Origin: a virus
Length of the DNA stretch: 25,044 nt
Strand: one strand, 5' to 3'
IMG/VR virus record: IMGVR_UViG_3300006751_000118
Coordinates: 1-25,044 of that record
Below, piece by piece: positions 2,477-21,138 of this stretch. The notes under the pieces are model-generated. The model did no database searches. It was not told where the DNA came from and saw nothing but the letters and a program-made list of their open reading frames with translations. The translations under genes and the position numbers were made by a program. How positions within the stretch are numbered: position 1 is the stretch's first letter; every line of letters starts with the position of its first letter.

Positions 2477-3236
2477 CCAGAGCCTCGCGTGTTCGGTAAA
2501 GGCGGCAACTCTTGACGAGTCGAGGCCTCTTAGGGGACTGATAAACTAGATAAGCCAAATATGCAGAAGATTCAACCATAAGCCGCGCATCAGTGTCCGA
2601 AAGCCGGAACGGATTCTTGTAAAGTAGCCTCAGAACCTCGGTTCTCTTGGTTAATCCGTACTTATGCCAGCCCGTAAACCACAAGGCCTGCTGAAAGTCC
2701 GTTGCGGTGGCCCAGAGTAGGTACTGTGGAAGCTGATTCAAGACAGATAGGCTGTCATGCATGGCATGTACCACGGAACTCTCGGACATATGGTAGGCCT
2801 TGGCGATTTCCTCGACTGTGAACCCCATGCAGTACATCAAGACCACGAAGAAGTTCGTAAAGTCCCGTATATTCGTCACATACCGCTGATGCATATCGAC
2901 GTTGGCGATCTCGTAGGGAGAGGGGATCATACGGTGCCTAAAAGCCGCATATACCCCCTCGGGCCACTTCTTTGGGGAGACAAGGCAGCGGTCAGATAGT
3001 ATCCAATCGTATAGTAGGGGGGTTTCGCGGAACCACGCCTGTAGCCGCTTCTGTGGGCCCCGAGATAGGGCAGGCATCCAGTCAAACCTCTTCTTCCGTG
3101 CCTTACAAACTGTTCCAAGGAATTCAGACCACGAAAAGTCGTAGGGGACGTGTGTACTGTAGATAGACCGAAGAGCAAGGGCGTGCGGACAAAGTTCCTT
3201 GTCCTTCATCCGCACCTGTAGCCGCCGCCTAGGCAT
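2466..3236 (-). CDS. Helix-turn-helix protein, probable DNA-binding regulator
   Basis: The protein has 256 residues. Residues about 138-165 (GFTVEEIAKAYHMSESSVVHAM) match the pattern of a sigma-region-4 or LuxR-type helix-turn-helix: a hydrophobic turn, EIAKAYHMSESSV, then a recognition helix. The N-terminus is very basic (MPRRRLQVRMKDK) and the C-terminal 40 residues are Arg/Lys-rich. There is no sigma-region-2 or response-regulator domain. It overlaps the primase-helicase gene by 8 bases (ATGCCTAG) and the next gene by 11 bases, so it should be co-translated with the replication protein. Likely a phage transcription regulator; a small-terminase-like DNA-binding role is an alternative. The HTH call is good, the role is inference. 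Confidence 0.75.
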   Translation of the reverse strand: MPRRRLQVRMKDKELCPHALALRSIYSTHVPYDFSWSEFLGTVCKARKKRFDWMPALSRGPQKRLQAWFRETPLLYDWILSDRCLVSPKKWPEGVYAAFRHRMIPSPYEIANVDMHQRYVTNIRDFTNFFVVLMYCMGFTVEEIAKAYHMSESSVVHAMHDSLSVLNQLPQYLLWATATDFQQALWFTGWHKYGLTKRTEVLRLLYKNPFRLSDTDARLMVESSAYLAYLVYQSPKRPRLVKSCRLYRTREALDVE

Positions 3237-5715
3237 CTGCTACGCTCATCCCCATGAACGGGGCTCGGGGCATCACAGAACGTCCTCTTAGGCCGATACC
3301 AATCCACACACGGATAGGTTTCCCATCCACCTTCGCGACTTTTGTCTGGAAGTTCCTCTCCTTGAGTTGCCGGTTGAACAATCTGTAGTTCTGGGGCCGC
3401 TGCCTCAATGCCTCACACCAGTCGGCGTAGCAGATGTAGAGTTCCTTCTGTGTCACCCTATGTCGGTCCCCGAGGAGGCAGTGCTCGTCCATGAACTCTG
3501 CCAAGACATCCATCTCCTCGCGGTATGCGTCCGTAGCCATCGTCACCTTCTCGGGAGGTTGCAAGCCGTGCTGTTGCCACTCCAGACATCCCGCAACCAA
3601 GCGATTCAGAATGCCCGGTGCTTCTTTCTTCAGCTTATCAAGGAGGAAGGGGTCTTTCTTGCTATCAGGCACTCTCTTGTTCCACGGAATGCGGATGACG
3701 CGCCGCCAGATACCCTCATCGTTGCCCTTGATGATGGGACGATGGTTTGCTGCAATGCAGAGCTTGTGTGTAGGCATGAACTGGTAGAAGTCCTGCCTCA
3801 TCCGACGAGCCCTCACCGGATCACTCCCCGTCAACTGCTTAATCAGCGACTCTGCAAAAGGCTTGCCCTTCTCGACCTCGGCATTGGCAACGAACCTTGT
3901 TCCTTCCAAGTCAGCCACCTCTGTAGGATGTGACTCCCCTTGCTTGGCGAGCAACAGACCCGGGGCACCTTGGATAGCGTAGTCACCCAGCACATGCATC
4001 AACATCAGGAGCGCGGTCGTCTTGCCATTGCAGCCTGTGCCCTCCATGAACAGCATCACCTGCTCGGTCGTCAGTCCGGTGAGGCAGTATCCGAAAAACC
4101 TATGTAGAAACTCGACTACCTCTTGGTCCCCTTCCATTGCGTAATCGATGAAGGCGTCCCACCGGGGGCATTGTGCATCTTTGTCCCACCCCACCGGGCT
4201 CGTTTTTGTCAGCAAGTCTGTGCGGTCGTGAGGCTGCAACTCTCCGGTTTGAAGGTTGAGAGTTCCATTGGTGACATTGAACAACCAAGGGTCTGCATCT
4301 AGACGGGAGGATTCCACGGTCATCTCAATCTCTGTTGACGCCAAGCTGACCATGGCGTTAATGGCGCGCGAACTTTCGCTACGCATTGCATGGCGACGAA
4401 TATCAACCTGCCTATTGGGGTCACTTTCAGCTTCTGCTTCCGCGAATATCAAACCCACAGCGGTCTTTGCTCGACGGTAGACCCCGCCATCCGTGTCTCG
4501 TCTCCACTTCACCTCATCGTAGGTGTACCAGTCGCCGTGCGTCGGGCAGAATAGGAGGTCCACCTGAGAAAGCCTAACCAACCTTTTAGCGTTACCCAGA
4601 TCTGTAAGATTCGGGGCTCCCATAGTAGAAGCCGTGGAGGGCAACACAGGTCCGCGAGCACCAGAGCCTGTCCCGCCAGACCCCAGCTTCTCACCTGCCT
4701 TGTCTTGCAGGTTTTTCCACCCGAGACTCTTGCCCTTATCGTCCTTCTCGTTTCCCTTACAGTTTTCGTGAAGGCAACCGGCTGCGATGGCCCCATTGTT
4801 GAACTGTACGACGTAGGCACTCCGGTCAGTGTGGTCAGCGTCCCAAGGACAGACGGGGAAAATCCACCTACGGCCCTTACCCTTCCAATTCTCAGGCTCC
4901 CCTAGCGAAGGGAAATGTTTTGTTACCCAGTTGTCTAAGGCTCCTACCGTCATCCCTCCCGAAGGCTGGCCTACGTTAGTATTAGGCACCAAACGGGCTA
5001 GGCCCTGTAGCTGCTGCGCTGAAACTGGTACGACTTCTTCTGGAGACTTGGCTAACCGTGCCACCCGCCATGGCCTTTCGTCCGAATGTTCTCCCTTACG
5101 GGCAATGCTGCCATACACCTTCCAGATGCGAGAGGGGTTGTAGACGGCTTGATCGATCTTAGCCCCCTCTGTGTTGAACAGGAAGGACAAGGCATCCAGT
5201 ACTAGCCGGATAACCTCGGAACTTGCACCCTCTACCCGGTACATCAGGTGGTATCCGTTCCCAGAGTCCCCGATGATAGGCTCAGGCCACCCAAAGTCCG
5301 AGAGATAGGCGCGTGTATCGGCTAATACCGCAGCCGCCTCTATCTTCTCCCCCCTATTTGCGGATAAACCAGCCTTTCTCTCGGGGTCTACGTCGATAAG
5401 GAGCCAGTCGATACTCTCGATGTCCGTATCTTTGGTCAGACTGCCTCTTTGGGCCAAACTTACTTTGTTAGTTACCCGGAGAGTGTCCGTTGTGCGGACA
5501 GGATTGGGTGTGAAGTACACTCCCTTGGCTCCTGCGTTGGATAATCGGGCCGCCGCCTCTGCAAATGCACTCAAATCCGTGAAATGTCCCGAGAAGGTCC
5601 GTTTAATCCCGTCTTTGCTGGGTACTTGCAGGGCTCTAAGCTCGACTACTTGGTCAGGGACAACAATCTTCCGTACTGCCGCTTCGATAGCGACAGAATC
5701 TGCTTTCAATTCCAT
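3229..5715 (-). CDS. Primase-helicase: AEP-type primase fused to D5/P4-like SF3 helicase
   Basis: An 828-aa bifunctional replication protein that should make primers and unwind the phage DNA. The N-terminal part carries archaeo-eukaryotic primase motifs: the metal-binding DVDP at 108-111, SGNGYHLMY at 151-159 and NPSRIWKVYGSIARKG at 193-208. A likely zinc knuckle follows (C289, H295, C314, H316, C319). The C-terminal half is a superfamily 3 helicase: Walker A GTGCNGKT at 559-566, a B-type segment around FVANAEVEKG (608-617) and the motif C segment KLCIAANHRP (651-660), flanked by the Arg-rich IWRRVIRIPW. The length is usual for this fusion and all key residues are present. AGGAG lies 5 bases before ATG 5715, and the gene follows an excisionase-like HTH gene by 8 bases. 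Downstream of a repeat array, it is the obvious replication initiator. Confidence 0.95.
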   Translation of the reverse strand: MELKADSVAIEAAVRKIVVPDQVVELRALQVPSKDGIKRTFSGHFTDLSAFAEAAARLSNAGAKGVYFTPNPVRTTDTLRVTNKVSLAQRGSLTKDTDIESIDWLLIDVDPERKAGLSANRGEKIEAAAVLADTRAYLSDFGWPEPIIGDSGNGYHLMYRVEGASSEVIRLVLDALSFLFNTEGAKIDQAVYNPSRIWKVYGSIARKGEHSDERPWRVARLAKSPEEVVPVSAQQLQGLARLVPNTNVGQPSGGMTVGALDNWVTKHFPSLGEPENWKGKGRRWIFPVCPWDADHTDRSAYVVQFNNGAIAAGCLHENCKGNEKDDKGKSLGWKNLQDKAGEKLGSGGTGSGARGPVLPSTASTMGAPNLTDLGNAKRLVRLSQVDLLFCPTHGDWYTYDEVKWRRDTDGGVYRRAKTAVGLIFAEAEAESDPNRQVDIRRHAMRSESSRAINAMVSLASTEIEMTVESSRLDADPWLFNVTNGTLNLQTGELQPHDRTDLLTKTSPVGWDKDAQCPRWDAFIDYAMEGDQEVVEFLHRFFGYCLTGLTTEQVMLFMEGTGCNGKTTALLMLMHVLGDYAIQGAPGLLLAKQGESHPTEVADLEGTRFVANAEVEKGKPFAESLIKQLTGSDPVRARRMRQDFYQFMPTHKLCIAANHRPIIKGNDEGIWRRVIRIPWNKRVPDSKKDPFLLDKLKKEAPGILNRLVAGCLEWQQHGLQPPEKVTMATDAYREEMDVLAEFMDEHCLLGDRHRVTQKELYICYADWCEALRQRPQNYRLFNRQLKERNFQTKVAKVDGKPIRVWIGIGLRGRSVMPRAPFMGMSVADA

Positions 5716-5723
5716 AGGGGCTC

Positions 5724-5945
5724 CTAAAAGAGGTCGAGTTGACGCCAGCTATCATCATCCAAATTGTCTAACACAGAACTATCCAAGTAACGCTGCAAGG
5801 CAGTGGGGGGGATCCTCTTCTGACCCCCCACGGTGTAGGCCCTTAACTGACCTGCCTTGATGAGTCGCTGAATTGTGCGCTCACTCACCTGCAAGAGCGA
5901 TGCTACTTGCTTGATTGAATACATAACCTCTCCGATCGTAATCAT
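5724..5945 (-). CDS. Small excisionase-like (HTH_17/MerR-type) DNA-binding protein
   Basis: The protein has 73 residues if started at ATG 5945, which has a strong AGGGAGG site six bases upstream; longer starts lack one, and ATG 5924 is an alternative. The fold signature of excisionase-type winged helix proteins is clear: MYSIKQVASLLQVSERTIQR (recognition helix), then LIKAGQLRAYTVGGQKRIPP (the wing) and a short C-terminal helix, with an acidic tail ending DLF. It is the first gene of the primase operon, immediately downstream of the GTTACAA array. It could be an origin- or operator-binding protein, or an excisionase-like repressor. No integrase is in the window, so excision is not supported here. 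Confidence 0.85.
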   Translation of the reverse strand: MITIGEVMYSIKQVASLLQVSERTIQRLIKAGQLRAYTVGGQKRIPPTALQRYLDSSVLDNLDDDSWRQLDLF

Positions 5946-5967: not shown

Positions 5968-5996
5968 TGGTAACACGAACTGTCACGGGGTGTCAA
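5968..5996 (-). promoter_or_regulatory. Possible promoter for the primase operon
   Basis: On the minus strand CTTGACA gives a perfect -35 box at 5996-5991. Seventeen bases later the hexamer TTACCA (5973-5968) is a poor -10 box. It lies 23 bases upstream of the HTH gene start at 5945 and just left of the GTTACAA array. The -35 match is seen; promoter activity is inference, and the weak -10 may need an activator. Confidence 0.45.
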
Positions 5997-6015: not shown

Positions 6016-6304
6016 GTTACAAAAGTTACAATCCGTTTGTAACCACCATAGTCCAGCTTGAACCCTGCATATCTCTGGAAGGTTACAAAGGTTACAACTT
6101 TTCCCCTATTATAAGCTCTAGAGCGTTGAAAAGGCCATGTAGTGTTTCTTGTATTAGTAGTTAGAAATACAAGAGCTATATATGCAATAACTTGTAACCT
6201 TGTAACTTTAGCTATAAAAACTCTTCATAACTACGGTTCCCCCTGCGTTATCGTTGGTTACAACTTTTCGGCCAAACTTGTAACCGTTTGTAACCGTTTG
6301 TAAC
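6016..6304. repeat. Iteron-like array: 11 copies of GTTACAA/TTGTAAC
   Basis: GTTACAA occurs at 6016, 6025, 6082, 6091 and 6257, and its complement TTGTAAC at 6037, 6192, 6200, 6278, 6288 and 6298. Several copies are paired at 8-10 bp spacing, and the last three are a tandem of a 10-bp unit (CGTTTGTAAC). The copies are spread over 289 bp with no gene, alongside A+T-rich stretches (around 6098-6250). A 7-mer is expected well under once in this length. The array sits directly upstream of the excisionase-like and primase-helicase genes. This is the architecture of an iteron origin or a multi-site operator; which one cannot be decided from sequence alone. Confidence 0.85.
6147..6174. repeat. Perfect 9-bp inverted repeat within the array region
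   Basis: TCTTGTATT at 6147-6155 and AATACAAGA at 6166-6174 are perfect complements with a 10-base loop. It lies in the A+T-rich middle of the GTTACAA array, between its left and right clusters. No T-run follows on either strand, so it is not a standard terminator; a protein-binding site or origin hairpin is more likely. Confidence 0.7.
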
Positions 6305-6461
6305 CCGCCTCGCGCTCGCCCTCCCACGGCTGCCCCAAGGGCTGATAAGCTCCCTTTTAACTGGTGAATAAGAACGTGGCCAAAAATTGACGTCGTGTTG
6401 AGTGGGTCCCCCCTCCGGGAACCGTCGGCCCGCCCTAAAGGGGGGATGCCCTCGCGGGACC
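6305..6461. other. Gene-free G+C-rich spacer with a plus-strand TTGACGTC element
   Basis: No plausible gene is present. The stretch is G+C-rich and contains TTGACGTC on the plus strand at 6387-6394, followed by GAGTGGGT. This resembles the promoter-like elements upstream of the three minus-strand units (TTGACGTC then GGTGGGGT) but points the other way, antisense to the neighbouring gene. Whether it is active is unknown. Confidence 0.5.
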
Positions 6462-6499
6462 AAAAAAAAGGCCCCACCGGAGAGCGGCTCCGGCAGGGC
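6462..6499 (-). terminator. Intrinsic terminator of the 6521-7220 unit
   Basis: On the minus strand the arms GCCCTGCCGGAG and CTCCGGTGGGGC (6499-6488 and 6482-6471) form a strong stem with one internal mismatch region and a 5-base loop, followed by eight T residues (6469-6462). It lies just after the hydrophobic micro-ORF and separates this unit from the GTTACAA array. Confidence 0.88.
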
Positions 6500-9483: not shown

Positions 9484-10247
9484 CATGCACCTCCTTGGTA
9501 TGCAGCCAGCAACTTAGCCACGAGCTTCTTCTGTGCACCATGCCCATAGAACATGACGGCAAACTTGCGATCGATCCGGGCACACAGCGGCTTCTTGTTG
9601 CCTCCGCAGTTAGAGCAGGTGATGTCATCACTCAACTGTGCAGGACATCCCACCACATCCCTGCCCTTGGGAGTCTTCAGCCTCTTTGCCTTGAGATCCC
9701 ACGGCACGACGACAGTAGCAGGTACACCGTGGTCCATCGCCTCGTCCACATCTTCCAAGCTGAAGCAGGACTTGTTCATTGCATAGCCGAGGGCCAAGCA
9801 CTCTCGGAACGTCGCCAGATTCTTCTTCAGCAGGTATGCACAGTACGTCCATGCTGTCTTTCTCTTGGCGGTCATGGCCGTAGCGATAATAACATTCTTC
9901 TTGTGGTGCAAGGTAGCAATGCCATCACCCGGTGAGTCGCCTGCCTGCTGCCCTCGCACCATCGTACCCCAAGGCAGCTTGCGAAGGGCTGCAATGTATC
10001 CCTTGAAATCCGTGCCCCGCTTTCTCTGGTCAACCCGGTCCCAGTGGAAGCTCAGTGGCTGTTGCTCTGCATAGCAGCCTTGAGAGTACCACCCTTCGAC
10101 GACTCCATCGTGTACATCCTCCTTGCGCTTGAGGAGGCAACTGTCAGGGCAGGTGTCCCGACTCGTTGTCGTCGTTGCAATAGGGCCGACCTTCTTGTTC
10201 CCGGTGACCTTGGTGACATGGTACTGATGTTCTTGTTCATTCTGCAT
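9483..10247 (-). CDS. Cysteine-rich phage protein resembling DUF7227/Gp88 family
   Basis: A 254-aa protein. Conserved-looking blocks are TTTSRDTCPDSCLLKR (about 26-41), GCYAEQQPLSFHW (57-69), a segment LRKLPWGTMVRGQQAGDSPGDG (88-109) and a C-terminal Cys cluster C(x8)C-x-x-C (around 219-235: CPAQLSDDITCSNCGG). This order, T-C-P-x-x-C, then GCYAE, then QAGD-PGDG, then CPAQ...TC-x-x-C, fits the phage proteins grouped as Gp88/DUF7227, whose function is unknown; the match is from memory and not searched. The cysteines could bind a metal or Fe-S cluster. ATG 10247 has AGGAG 6 bases upstream. It is the first gene of its unit, with a TTGACG element 45 bases upstream. Confidence 0.75.
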   Translation of the reverse strand: MQNEQEHQYHVTKVTGNKKVGPIATTTTSRDTCPDSCLLKRKEDVHDGVVEGWYSQGCYAEQQPLSFHWDRVDQRKRGTDFKGYIAALRKLPWGTMVRGQQAGDSPGDGIATLHHKKNVIIATAMTAKRKTAWTYCAYLLKKNLATFRECLALGYAMNKSCFSLEDVDEAMDHGVPATVVVPWDLKAKRLKTPKGRDVVGCPAQLSDDITCSNCGGNKKPLCARIDRKFAVMFYGHGAQKKLVAKLLAAYQGGA

Positions 10248-10277
10248 TGCTTTCTCCTACATGGTGTCCGATGGAGA

Positions 10278-10297
10278 ACCCCACCGGTAGACGTCAA
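10278..10297 (-). promoter_or_regulatory. Promoter-like element, copy 3
   Basis: The minus strand has CTTGACGTCTAC followed by CGGTGGGGT (10286-10278), with TTGACG at 10297-10292, about 45 bases upstream of the cysteine-rich gene. It matches copy 2 over TTGACGTC and CGGTGGGGT with the same 5-base gap. No good -10 hexamer follows, which hints at an activator or a phage-specific polymerase. Confidence 0.55.
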
Positions 10298-10303
10298 GTA
10301 TTT

Positions 10304-10377
10304 CGGTCCATCCAGATGCGCCACAAATAAATATTTTTCCCGTCGAAAACCCAGCTTCAACCGAGACAGTTGGACCG
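10304..10377. repeat. Inverted repeat CGGTCCA/TGGACCG between divergent promoters
   Basis: CGGTCCA at 10304-10310 and TGGACCG at 10371-10377 are perfect complements 60 bases apart, flanking an A+T-rich core (AAATAAATATTTTT near 10325-10338). They lie between the minus-strand TTGACG at 10297 and the plus-strand TTGACA at 10396. This is a plausible two-site operator for both directions. Confidence 0.5.
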
Positions 10378-10395
10378 GCCAAAATCACCCGGTTC

Positions 10396-10424
10396 TTGAC
10401 AGGTTTGTGTGTAATCGGCTAGTC
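10396..10424 (+). promoter_or_regulatory. Possible promoter for the plus-strand early genes
   Basis: A perfect TTGACA at 10396-10401 is followed after 17 bases by CTAGTC (10419-10424), a weak -10. It lies about 48 bases upstream of the first plus-strand gene, and no other candidate is visible in the 224-bp gap. Activity is inferred. Confidence 0.5.
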
Positions 10425-10471
10425 GTTTGGACGCTGACGGAATGGCCCGTCGGCTGAACGAAGGAGATGCG

Positions 10472-10822
10472 ATGTTTACATTGAAGAAGCAGATTCAGGT
10501 GACACTTAGCAAAGAGGACGTCTACGAAATCATCGAAGGCCTCTTCCTTGCAGACCCAACGGAGATGCTGGCAGACTTGCTTCATGCAGTCTTTCAGCCC
10601 GAGGAGGTTTGTGACGGTGTTAGTGCATGGGCTGCCAAGCTCACGCCAGAAGTGCGGATGCAGTTGGTTGAAAAACTTATCGGTCAGGACAACAAGGACT
10701 GGGTGGCCGCAGTCAGAGCAGATGAGAAGAAGAAGATGAATGAAGAGCAGGCGGCGAGAGCCCTTGCAGCAGTGAGTACACTTGAGTTTACATTGAAGAA
10801 CAGAGGAGGATTGGAATCATGA
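10472..10822 (+). CDS. Unknown 116-aa protein, first plus-strand gene
   Basis: ATG 10472 has AAGGAG 6 bases upstream; longer reading to 10427 has no site. The protein (MFTLKKQIQVTLSKEDVYEI) is helical and mixed-charge, with an acidic middle (LFLADPTEMLADLLHAVFQPEEV) and a Lys/Glu-rich C-terminal third (DEKKKMNEEQAARALAAV). The beta-type start (QIQVTLSKEDVYEIIEG) resembles many small phage accessory proteins, but I recognise no family. The stop overlaps the next start as ATGA. It follows a TTGACA promoter candidate, so it is probably made early. Confidence 0.75.
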   Translation: MFTLKKQIQVTLSKEDVYEIIEGLFLADPTEMLADLLHAVFQPEEVCDGVSAWAAKLTPEVRMQLVEKLIGQDNKDWVAAVRADEKKKMNEEQAARALAAVSTLEFTLKNRGGLES

Positions 10823-14424: not shown

Positions 14425-16038
14425 ATGCAACGAAGGATGACACCGCCGCCCCATCCGATGGGCTGGCAGGCAGTGCTGGCTGGTGTACCCGGCGCAGGTA
14501 GAGGGCAACTACCCGCCAATGCTCTCCCACTGCTAGGCACCTCGTTACAAAACCAGAACGTGGCTGACCCATGGGACGTCCCTGCTATCCGAGCACGGAT
14601 TAAGCCGTGGGTACTGGACGGTTTCCTGATGCCCTACCAGAGAGAGGGGTGGCAGTGGGCTCACGCGCGCGAGGGGTCATGTGCATGGTGGGCCTGCGGT
14701 TCAGGCAAGACACTGCTTGCACTCTTGTGGTTGGTGAGCGGGTCCCAAGCGGAGAAGAAGATCGTGGTCACGAGGGCTCCGACGAAGAGGCAGTGGCAGC
14801 GGGAAGCGGCGCAGTACACAGACCTTCGCATCCATGTCTTAGAGGGCAAGAGCGTGGCTATGATCCCAGAGGATACGGAGTGCGTGGTTCTATCTTGGGA
14901 GACGCTCACTGCGTGGCTACCAGAGCTACGTCGCTGGGCAGGTAGTAACAGTGCGCTTGTCTTAGACGAACTACACAAGGGCAAGGCGTGGAAGCGGAAG
15001 GACAAACACATAGATGCCAACGGCAAGGTAGCGTACCGCTGGGCGAGCAACCGAGCAGCCGCCGCAGCCAAGCTCTCTGCCCACTGTAGACGCAGGCTAG
15101 GGCTGACGGCTACGCCTATCCGTGACCGCATCTCGGACCTCTGGGCACAGCTTGACTTGATTGAGCCCGGTTGCTGGGGGTCTAACTGGGATTGGATCCA
15201 CCGCTACTGTGATGCCAAGAAGGGAGAGTACGGAGGCATCGACACCAGCGGTACTTCTAATGTAGATGAACTGAAGGCACGGCTCCGTACTGTTACGCAT
15301 GTAGTTAGCTACGGGGAGATGAGTAAGCACCTCCCGGCAAAGCGGAGACAGCTAGTGTACTTGACCCGTCAAGATCAGTCACGTCCCTCTGCCTTCAAGC
15401 AGGACATGAAGGCGGCAGCGAAGAAGGGGAAGGCCGCCATGTTTGAGATGCAGTTGATGGAGGCAGCTTCCCGTAAGCGGAAGTGGATTGCGGAGACAGT
15501 GCTCGATGCCGTCGAGGCGGGCCAGAAGGTGGTCGTATTTACAGGACGCAGGAAGGACTGCGTGGCCCTGACGAAGGCGATCGAGACGAAGATCAAGAAA
15601 TGTCAGGTTCCTCTCTGGTCGGGCCATGGTGGCGACTCTATGAAACATCGGGAGCAGATGGTAGCCGAGTACGCAGCGCACGATTCAGCGGGAGTTTTCG
15701 TAGGGACAACCGATGCTTTCGGTGAGGCCATCGATGGGCTCCAGCATACCGACCTCGCCATGTTCGCCTTGTTGCCATGGACGCCGGGTATGGTTACGCA
15801 GGCGGAAGGGAGATTCAGTAGACACGGCAGCACACGTCGTGTGTTGATCTCCTATGTAGTAGCCGAAGGAACAGTAGACGAACACATTGCTGACCTGTTG
15901 TTAGAGAAGCTAGAAGCAGTAGAAGAAACACTTAATGATTCAGAGGCAGGAGGAGTAGCCCGGACTCTGGCGGGCGACGAAGACGAAGAAGCTATTATCG
16001 ATTCAATCTTTAGTTTAATGGAGAACACCCATGGGTGA
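14425..16038 (+). CDS. SNF2-like superfamily 2 DNA helicase/translocase
   Basis: The protein has 537 residues. Motif Q-like LMPYQREGWQWA (about 68-79), motif I WACGSGKT (89-96), Ia VTRAPTKRQW, motif II DELH (181-184, where many relatives have DEXH), motif III LGLTATP (225-231), motif V around FGEAIDGLQH and motif VI QAEGRFSRHGS (arginine finger) are all present in order, as in SNF2/ERCC3-type ATPases. Phage members act in replication, recombination or origin remodelling. GAGG lies 5 bases before ATG 14425. It is the first large gene of the plus-strand replication module, overlapping the following 81-aa gene. Confidence 0.93.
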   Translation: MQRRMTPPPHPMGWQAVLAGVPGAGRGQLPANALPLLGTSLQNQNVADPWDVPAIRARIKPWVLDGFLMPYQREGWQWAHAREGSCAWWACGSGKTLLALLWLVSGSQAEKKIVVTRAPTKRQWQREAAQYTDLRIHVLEGKSVAMIPEDTECVVLSWETLTAWLPELRRWAGSNSALVLDELHKGKAWKRKDKHIDANGKVAYRWASNRAAAAAKLSAHCRRRLGLTATPIRDRISDLWAQLDLIEPGCWGSNWDWIHRYCDAKKGEYGGIDTSGTSNVDELKARLRTVTHVVSYGEMSKHLPAKRRQLVYLTRQDQSRPSAFKQDMKAAAKKGKAAMFEMQLMEAASRKRKWIAETVLDAVEAGQKVVVFTGRRKDCVALTKAIETKIKKCQVPLWSGHGGDSMKHREQMVAEYAAHDSAGVFVGTTDAFGEAIDGLQHTDLAMFALLPWTPGMVTQAEGRFSRHGSTRRVLISYVVAEGTVDEHIADLLLEKLEAVEETLNDSEAGGVARTLAGDEDEEAIIDSIFSLMENTHG

Positions 16039-18650: not shown

Positions 18651-18669
18651 CTTGGGAGAGGGAGACACG

Positions 18670-21138
18670 ATGAAGGTGTGCGACTACGCTCGTTGTGACG
18701 AGTGCCCGCTGAAGAAGCACTGGGAATCCGAGGGTAGCTGGGAACCCGTTAGTGCGGAAGTGAATACGAAGGGGCTGCTGGTCTTAGGAGACGCGCCCTC
18801 TAAGCTGGACACGGAACTCCAGCGTCCGTTCTCCGACATGCACGGGGCCACGGTACTGGACGAACTGAAGAGGTTTGTTCCGCAATCCCCTAGAAAAGCT
18901 GTGTCGTGGGGTAACGTCATCGGGTGCCGCTGGCCCAAGGATGACCCGGCTACCTACCACACGAAGCTCCGAGGTATCAACCGTCGCCGTGCTGCGGCGG
19001 GCAAGACCCCGTACATCACGCCTGTCGAGGCATGTGCCCCGTACCGGGAGCGTCTACTGGACATGCACGAGACTGTGCTCTCCTTGGGGAGCATCGCCAC
19101 TAAGGCTGTGCTGGGGGGGAACCCGTCACTATTGGCAGTCAGAGGAGGCCCCACCTATGCAGGCCCGACTAAGGTGATGCCTACCTACCACCCACGGGCC
19201 TTCCAGAAGGAGCCGAAGCTCGTCCCTGTCTTCCGTAGGGACTTGGCCAAAGGACTCAGGCACCACAAGGACAGGCTCCGCTGGGTAGATCCCGTCGTCC
19301 ACTACAGCCCAAGTGTAGAGTTTGTCCGGCAGTTCTTCCAGAGAGCGAAGGCCGAGGGCTGGATGCTCACCTACGATGTGGAGACAGACAGTGTTGACTG
19401 CCTGACCTGCGAGCTAAGGTGCGTTGGAATCGGTACGGATAAGGAAGTTCTAATCTTGGGTTTCCTTAGTATCGATGGCACCTCACGTTTCTATTCGTCA
19501 GAGGAGGAGGAGCAGATTAAACGCCTGCTCCGTGAGGTGCTCTGTGACTCTTCAACATTGGTATGTGGCCATAACGCTGGCTACTTTGATCGCATTGTTG
19601 TAGAGCAGCACCTCGGTGTCACCCCCACTCCTTTGCTGGACACTGTGCTCTTGCACAAGCTGGCGGCGTCCGAGTACCCACACAGGCTGGGCTTTGTGTC
19701 CTCATACTTCTTGGACACCCCGGCATGGAAGGCAGACCACACGGCGGTGATGGCAAAGACAGACCGGGAGCTTCACGAGTACTGCGCGGTGGACGTCGCC
19801 GCCACAGCACGGATCGTCCCTCCTATCAGGGACGTCGCCAAGAGCCGTAGCCAACTCCACCTGTACAAGCATGATGCAAAGCTCCAGAGCATCTGCGCTG
19901 GGATGCGCCGTCTTGGGATCCGCATCGACGAGGGCAGGAGGTTTGCCCATGAGCAGCGGTTGATTAAGGATGCGGCCCGGTGGCTCAACGTCATCCACGA
20001 GTACGTCCCGGGCATGAACCCAAGGTCCAACCGGCAGGTGCAAGACCTGTTCTTCAACCAGTGGCACCTACCTATCCAGAAGTACACGGCCACCGGAGAG
20101 GAGAGCGTAGACTCGTCGGTGCTTCGTGGATTGGTCGGGAACCCCTTGGTTGACGAACAACAGCGTAACTTCGTTAATGCTCTGCGTTTCTACCGACGCG
20201 CCGAAAAGCAGCTTTCTACCTACGTTTACAAGCTTGCCCCAAATGGCGAGTTAGTGCGCGACGGCTATGTCTACCCCGACTTCCTTGCTCATGGGACGGT
20301 GACAGGCAGGCTCTCATCGAAGTCTCCAAACTTCCAGAACATTCCCTACGGCTTGCGGGACTGCTTCATCCCTCCCAAGGGGTGCGTGTTCGTCGGGGCA
20401 GACTACGATCAGTTGGAGTTGAGGTTCTGTGCAGGACTCGCGGGCGCAGACCACTACCTAGATGCGTTCACAAAGCAGTTGATCGATCCCCACAACCTGA
20501 CCGCCGACCTGATGTTTGGGGAGAAGTTCTGGTCAGCACCCGGAGCCCCGGACAGCAGGATGGGCAAGGGTAGAGATCAATTCAAGCAGCTACGCAACCT
20601 AGCTAAGACGATCTGCTTTGCCTCCCTCTACGGGGCGAGTGCCCCCAAGGTGCACGAGATCATCGGACGGGCCGAGGACAACGAGGGCAACCTCCTGTAC
20701 GCTCACTACAACCTGAGGCAGATCCGCGCCCTACACAAGCGATGGAAGCAGAAGGCCCCGGAGTTCAAGCTATGGTGGGACCGGACCCTCAAGCAGTGCA
20801 GAGCCGACGGGTACATCGAAGAGGTTGTGTTGGGACGTAGACGCTACTTCCACAAGGAAGACTACAACGCTATCTTGAACTTCCCCGTCCAAGCAGGTGG
20901 CTTCAACGTAGTGGCCCTCTCTATGATTGAGTTGGTGGAGAAGCACATCCCATTCGACTTCGGACAGAAGACAGGCATGGTGAACCAGTTACACGATGCT
21001 GTACTGTTCAGCGTGCCCGAGTCAGAAGCCGAGTATTTTCAAGAAGTGGTGAGCCAGACCATGACCCGTGTCGTGGAGGGGTTGCCCGTTACATTCACAG
21101 CTAGTGCCGAAATCGGCCAGAATTGGAAGGAGGTCTGA
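18670..21138 (+). CDS. Uracil-DNA-glycosylase domain fused to family A DNA polymerase with 3'-5' exonuclease
   Basis: The protein has 822 residues from ATG 18670 (GGGAG 5 bases upstream). Residues 1-200 match family 4 uracil-DNA glycosylases: LLVLGDAPSKLDTELQRPF (36-54), NVIGCRWP (82-89), VEACAPY (119-125), and PTYHPRA (171-177). Cysteines C9, C12, C86 and C122 fit its 4Fe-4S cluster. Exonuclease motifs follow: D236/E238, N302...D307 and Y371-x3-D375. Polymerase motifs are A (DYDQLELR, 578-585), B (R642, K646, F650, Y654-G) and C. Motif C reads HDA (775-777), where family A normally has HDE. F650 aligns with E. coli Pol I F762, a residue linked to virulent phages. Replicative polymerase; UDG fusions are known, for example in phage SPO1. 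Confidence 0.93.
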   Translation: MKVCDYARCDECPLKKHWESEGSWEPVSAEVNTKGLLVLGDAPSKLDTELQRPFSDMHGATVLDELKRFVPQSPRKAVSWGNVIGCRWPKDDPATYHTKLRGINRRRAAAGKTPYITPVEACAPYRERLLDMHETVLSLGSIATKAVLGGNPSLLAVRGGPTYAGPTKVMPTYHPRAFQKEPKLVPVFRRDLAKGLRHHKDRLRWVDPVVHYSPSVEFVRQFFQRAKAEGWMLTYDVETDSVDCLTCELRCVGIGTDKEVLILGFLSIDGTSRFYSSEEEEQIKRLLREVLCDSSTLVCGHNAGYFDRIVVEQHLGVTPTPLLDTVLLHKLAASEYPHRLGFVSSYFLDTPAWKADHTAVMAKTDRELHEYCAVDVAATARIVPPIRDVAKSRSQLHLYKHDAKLQSICAGMRRLGIRIDEGRRFAHEQRLIKDAARWLNVIHEYVPGMNPRSNRQVQDLFFNQWHLPIQKYTATGEESVDSSVLRGLVGNPLVDEQQRNFVNALRFYRRAEKQLSTYVYKLAPNGELVRDGYVYPDFLAHGTVTGRLSSKSPNFQNIPYGLRDCFIPPKGCVFVGADYDQLELRFCAGLAGADHYLDAFTKQLIDPHNLTADLMFGEKFWSAPGAPDSRMGKGRDQFKQLRNLAKTICFASLYGASAPKVHEIIGRAEDNEGNLLYAHYNLRQIRALHKRWKQKAPEFKLWWDRTLKQCRADGYIEEVVLGRRRYFHKEDYNAILNFPVQAGGFNVVALSMIELVEKHIPFDFGQKTGMVNQLHDAVLFSVPESEAEYFQEVVSQTMTRVVEGLPVTFTASAEIGQNWKEV

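Follow-up and report, generated by a model that had tools for sequence, protein, structure and literature searches.

An iteron array before a phage primase-helicase operon keeps its layout while its repeat changes and is a probable replication origin

The DNA analysed here, referred to below as the window, is a viral contig of 25,044 bases. It is a fragment and carries a family A DNA polymerase gene together with other phage genes, including those for a PD-(D/E)XK nuclease, an AAA ATPase and a SNF2-like helicase. Besides its exonuclease, the polymerase has a UDG-like N-terminal domain. A small HTH_17 gene and a primase-helicase gene form an operon on the minus strand, and the primase-helicase matches the Pfam families D5_N, DUF5906 and Pox_D5. 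Its relatives in cultured phages are distant only, the best one listed having less than 40% identity over about half of the primase. Read along the minus strand, the order is terminator-like hairpin, CTCAACACGA, iteron group D, group C, AT-rich core, group B, group A, putative promoter, HTH_17 and primase-helicase (Table 1). The promoter was read by eye; a consensus promoter scan reported nothing, the operon promoter included, and Rfam gave no RNA family in the array region.

Table 1. Positions of the array elements and of the genes discussed
Feature	Positions	Strand	Remarks
C-terminal winged helix of the primase-helicase, about residues 739-810, proposed iteron reader	3286-3501	-	Pox_D5/RFX-like
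Primase-helicase, 828 aa, proposed initiator	3229-5715	-	AEP-like N-terminal part, D5_N, SF3 helicase core, Pox_D5 C-terminus
HTH_17 (MerR/excisionase-like) protein, 73 aa	5724-5945	-	ATG, GGGAGG ribosome-binding site; present in relatives
Putative promoter of the HTH-primase operon	5968-5996	-	TTGACA (5996-5991), 17 bp, TTACCA (5973-5968)
Iteron group A, 3 copies	6016-6043		GTTACAA at 6016 (+), 6025 (+), 6037 (-); counterpart (+--) in relatives
Iteron group B, inner tandem pair	6082-6097	+	6082 (+), 6091 (+), 9-bp spacing; inner pair in nearly all relatives
AT-rich core between the inner iteron pairs, putative melting site	6098-6191		34% GC
TTATAATAGGGGAAAA block, joins the core to inner pair B	6099-6114	-	near-identical block beside the inner pair in about 12 relatives
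Iteron group C, inner tandem pair	6192-6206	-	6192 (-), 6200 (-), 8-bp spacing; kept in relatives
Iteron group D, 4 copies	6257-6304		6257 (+), 6278 (-), 6288 (-), 6298 (-), 10-bp tandem; counterpart (+++-) in relatives
CTCAACACGA element, candidate site of the HTH protein	6393-6402	-	CTCAACAYGA kept in relatives of the same HTH type despite differing iterons
Intrinsic-terminator-like hairpin and T tract	6471-6499	-	would end the upstream minus-strand transcript
Family A DNA polymerase, likely the replicative polymerase of the same virus	18652-21138	+	3'-5' exonuclease

The 7-mer GTTACAA occurs 11 times within positions 6016-6304, while the only other copy in the contig is solitary at 14544. 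An earlier note on this DNA had described these copies as a cluster in both orientations, partly in tandem at 8-10 bp, in gene-free DNA beside the HTH gene and the primase-helicase, and this description is confirmed on each point: copies in tandem are spaced 8, 9 or 10 bp apart, the stretch contains overlapping short ORFs only and no recognisable gene, and its neighbours are of the HTH_17 and D5 types. The array is far beyond chance. Shuffles of the whole window gave an expectation of 1.8 copies with a maximum of 6, and 2000 dinucleotide shuffles of the local 650 bp gave a mean of 0.16 and a maximum of 3. When any 7-mer was counted, the best number in 300 bp was 3-5 in 20 shuffled windows, as compared with 10 in the array and 4 in the rest of the window.

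The copies fall into four groups, whose orientations on the minus strand, the direction of the operon, are +++- in D and ++ in C, then the core, -- in B and +-- in A. Groups A and B on one side and C and D on the other flank the least stable DNA of the whole record, and the same is seen in the relatives. The least stable 60 bp lie at 6151-6210 and the least stable 100 bp at 6139-6238, and the core between B and C holds the bulk of both, so the melting profile proposed as a check in the earlier note places most of the weakest DNA of the record between the inner iteron pairs. The GC skew proposed along with it has no turn at the array. Its cumulative minimum lies near 10.3 kb (interval 10001-10500), where the direction of transcription flips, and since the minimum follows gene direction we discarded skew as evidence on the origin.

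Relatives were obtained from scans of viral contigs (42-73% identity, with remoter ones below), several loci being the same contig fetched again. In about 30 related contigs with enough upstream DNA, the primase is preceded by a small HTH gene and this in turn by a comparable array; among them the repeat is less clear in L137/L157, L163, L271 and L273, and no array repeat was found in L169. Conservation in related phages, which the earlier note had made a test of its motif, is therefore of a divided kind: the position and layout of the array are kept, but the 7-mer GTTACAA itself is not. Written on the GTA strand, the repeat core is GTAACC in the window, GTAACC-A in L139, GTAACA in L143, GTAACC-T in the L173 group, GTAGAC-A in L144, L147, L149, L151, L152, L145 and L164 and also in L166, GTAGAC-G in L141, L142 and L172, GTAGAA in L148, GTAGTA in L138 and L154, GTAGTC in L155 and L160, GTAGTT in L170 and GTAGCA in L174. 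The layout (+++-)(++)core(--)(+--) recurs in most relatives with these different repeats, the inner tandem pairs facing the AT-rich core; L154/L155/L160 and the L173 group stray further from it. On the GTA strand all signs are inverted in L139, L143, L141/L142/L172 and L137, and if the repeat is read as GT-N(1-2)-AC the orientation in these would be largely the same as in the others.

In two related contigs of 54 kb, dense clustering of the repeat is confined to a single site, before the HTH-primase pair. In the sample of distant D5 primases of bacterial genomes (less than 37% identity), no comparable array was found on the upstream side, except for an unrelated repeat in L259. The upstream region of L138 (the same as L002) contains, besides its CGTAGTA array, a second cluster of a different repeat family, CTTGACA/TGTCAAG, with 13 copies.

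A scan for triple GTTACAA yielded at least 119 viral stretches, and about one third of the matches listed belong to small-gene phage groups with no primase recognised beside the array. L112, L070, L036 and about 33 similar loci are related small-gene phage contigs of this kind, with GTTACAA arrays and no recognised adjacent SF3 helicase. L127 has 71 copies in a single orientation over 1.2 kb (4628-5849) and resembles a satellite or a tandem repeat in coding DNA rather than an origin. L105 (7106-8288) and L134 (978-2160) have two arrays of about 10 copies each within 1.2 kb of each other.

Elsewhere in viruses, GTTACAA arrays often adjoin SF3-type helicases. We took from the matches listed 46 other, unrelated viral contigs with at least five GTTACAA copies and scanned the large ORFs within 1.5 kb of the arrays. 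Among these 80 ORFs, DUF5906 was found in 13, VapE-like domains in 8, DUF927 in 3, the Cch-type HTH_56 in 3 and D5_N in 2, and all five families are absent from the 25 commonest families of 79 ORFs lying more than 3 kb away. Arrays are also present in cultured phages: in phi105 (AGTAACA, 7), vB_BteM-A9Y (GGGTTAA, 6) and Milly (ATCTGTC, 6), they lie at the 3' end of the primase gene. No array was conspicuous near the primase gene in Phage Wrath and AcaML1, and the signal in the Methanoculleus virus is weak. The phi105 array (record positions 33778-34138, or 5360-5720 of L351) has tandem GTTACTT/AGTAACA pairs around a ATATATATA core, in the arrangement GTTACTTTTGTTACTT, AT-rich DNA, AGTAACAAAAGTAACA, and its repeat shares the core GTTAC with that of the window. 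A literature search gave no match for GTTACAA with iteron.

The structure of the primase-helicase was predicted with a mean pLDDT of 82 and a pTM of 0.51, the latter leaving the placement of its domains uncertain. The predicted fold resembles AsfvPrimPol and poxvirus D5-type enzymes, and the sequence profile matches 7ola (listed as DNA primase) with an E-value of 3e-16, an entry that we take to be the SaPI5 primase-helicase (PriRep1). Modelled alone, the C-terminal domain is a winged helix. Structural comparison ranks RFX5 (Z 9.9) and the RFX1-X-box complex 1dp7 (Z 8.8) highest, ahead of AsfvPrimPol at 7.5; Z values just above 8 are moderately strong at most. In sequence, Pox_D5 is found in this domain in 21 of 21 relatives and RFX_DNA_binding (PF02257) in 20 of them at a relaxed threshold (E up to 5, best 1.7e-5), the window protein scoring 13.2 bits against a curated cut-off of 27 and so falling below it. 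From the modelled fold, the domain would work like RFX, and it is not filed as an RFX member.

The C-terminal domain tracks the distance between repeats when the rest of the primase is controlled for (partial r 0.34, p 0.001, all loci), as does its wing in the close group (partial r 0.27, p 0.006). Neither the AEP part nor the helicase core reached significance in the same test. This covariation is modest and comes from few, related sequences. We also slid windows over the whole primase to locate the specificity region and rejected this approach: several segments, for example residues 301-340, and in the close group 11-50 or 471-510, score as high as the C-terminus, which is not singled out.

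RFX sites have the form GTNRCC N0-3 RGYAAC (PMC5752003), so the GTAAC of the window iteron matches the GYAAC of the half-site, although other repeats of the lineage (GTAGAC etc.) are without it. Several repeat types go with a C-terminal helix that hardly varies. Gajiwala et al. are said to have found in 2000 that RFX1 contacts DNA mainly through its wing, which would agree with a helix that stays constant and a wing that varies in this lineage. We regard RFX-like reading of the iterons as a lead. Doubtful is the fuller proposal that, in the initiators of this lineage, an RFX-like wing recognises the iterons at the same GTAAC-type half-site as eukaryotic RFX, and that the wing and some ten iterons have repeatedly been rewritten together into mutually orthogonal origin-initiator pairs.

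The earlier note had instead favoured the 73-aa HTH_17 protein as the binding factor, which might bind the iterons and recruit the primase-helicase to the array. Its gene adjoins the array and is present in nearly all primase relatives, and the HTH-type subgroups (RTVQR, NTVR, HTVY) have partly different repeats, yet within the close relatives the recognition helix RTVQRL/M is near-constant across at least seven repeat types. L144 (GTAGACA) and L148 (GTAGAAA) have an identical helix and wing, and the variable helix position is K in three repeat types. Conversely, GGTTACA arrays pair with both RTIQR and NTVR helices, the L173 group having GGTTACA like the window and an NTVR helix. The distance between HTH proteins does not correlate with that between repeats once the distance in the rest of the primase is controlled for (partial r 0.03, p 0.36; in L165 the HTH gene is split by a frameshift, and its two parts were joined just for the alignment used in the correlation tests), and no HTH homologue was detected in the fetched DNA of many of the unrelated contigs with GTTACAA arrays beside primase-helicases. 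On the mismatch between helix and repeat we rejected the recognition helix as the iteron reader, and we think it improbable that the HTH protein binds the array in the way proposed.

The element CTCAACAYGA (6393-6402 in the window, followed by a TTTTT tract) hardly varies among relatives whose HTH is of the RTVQR type, although the DNA around it changes. It is kept with this HTH type (one base changed in L138), has one base changed in L155/L160 and was not found in L154, L166, the L173 group or L163/L271. Because it follows the HTH type and not the iteron, it is a better candidate site for the HTH protein than the iterons, and its co-occurrence could alternatively reflect shared descent. Judged by these alignments, a role in regulation or as an accessory factor is the likelier one for the small HTH protein, which would act elsewhere, possibly at CTCAACAYGA, and the comparison points to the primase-helicase tail as what would read the repeat.

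As for the function of the array, we consider it highly probable that it is a replication origin of the PICI/P4 type, with the primase-helicase as its initiator and the C-terminal RFX-like winged helix binding the iterons. The candidate origin of the earlier note thereby gains strong support, because relatives retain the array in the same position and with its arrangement around the weakest DNA, because arrays in unrelated viruses are linked to SF3 helicases, and because phi105 has such an array, with the core GTTAC in common, beside its primase. The other function considered in the earlier note, an autoregulatory operator at which a bound virus or host protein would repress or activate the HTH-primase operon, fares less well. 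The array does lie directly upstream of the operon, and iterons of many replicons also serve as operators, but even the repeat closest to the putative -35 is some 20 bp upstream of it, an AT-rich core surrounded by four groups that span 289 bp is unlike a simple operator and fits an origin better, and the similar array of phi105 lies 3' of its primase gene. The case for an autoregulatory operator is weak and such a main function very unlikely, but the array may have a secondary regulatory role. Partition systems can likewise have repeat arrays and a small DNA-binding protein. That the array is a centromere-like site (parS/parC type) of a plasmid-like prophage is nevertheless scarcely credible, given that no ParA/ParM-type motor was recognised among the 20 window proteins scanned with Pfam and that such arrays are linked to SF3 helicases in many viruses.

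If the array is an origin, the C-terminal winged helix of the primase-helicase would bind iterons on both sides of the core. The inner tandem pairs point at the core from both sides, which suits the assembly of two SF3 hexamers; these may melt the core, then load on the single strands and unwind the DNA, which the primase-helicase would prime for the family A polymerase. Since close relatives keep the layout and change the repeat, they offer ready-made pairs for mapping the initiator residues that set origin specificity. Such arrays also make it easy to find origins in phages known from metagenomes, and the phi105 array provides a ready laboratory model.

Among known systems, iteron plasmids of the Rep_3/RepA type share direct repeats and AT-rich DNA at the origin, but their initiator is Rep_3, which had no Pfam match among the scanned window proteins (nor had RepA-type Rep proteins), whereas here it would be a primase-helicase, with repeats in both orientations around the core. 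In SCCmec, Cch2 uses its C-terminal domain to bind short repeats at a putative origin (PMC7581432), and Cch-type HTH_56/DUF927 genes flank some GTTACAA arrays; Cch2 differs in its iteron (AAGTG), in having a separate polymerase-primase and in being described as MCM-like rather than as a D5-type helicase. The P4 alpha protein is likewise a fusion of AEP primase and SF3 helicase with a C-terminal winged-helix domain that binds the origin, and the tail of a related enzyme has been likened to the P4 domain and to RFX1 (PMC10516667), although P4 is a satellite with another gene order. In phi105, the tandem pairs also face an AT-rich core and the D5-type primase has 39% identity over the helicase part, but the array is 3' of the primase and no HTH gene is annotated directly before it.

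The closest likeness is to the PICIs, whose origins consist of two iteron sets around an AT-rich region, an organisation stated to be unique to them among known bacterial replicons (PMC6092414). SaPI Rep, like Cch2, binds iterons through its C-terminal domain (PMC7581432). The window shares with PICI/SaPI the two iteron sets flanking an AT-rich region and the adjoining SF3-type primase-helicase, whose C-terminus is a winged helix by fold and family. It differs in that the PICI origin lies immediately 3' of the initiator gene, as do the arrays of phi105 and several unrelated contigs, whereas in the window and its close relatives the array is 5' of the HTH-primase operon. PICIs are, moreover, satellites, while this virus encodes a family A polymerase, a SNF2-like helicase and a PD-(D/E)XK nuclease of its own and was not recognised as a satellite. 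The organisation recurs in a number of unrelated viral contigs and in phi105 besides this uncultured phage lineage, which encodes its own polymerase, and so may be a general origin type of phages with SF3 primase-helicases; this suggests that the PICI-like organisation is wider than the PICIs.
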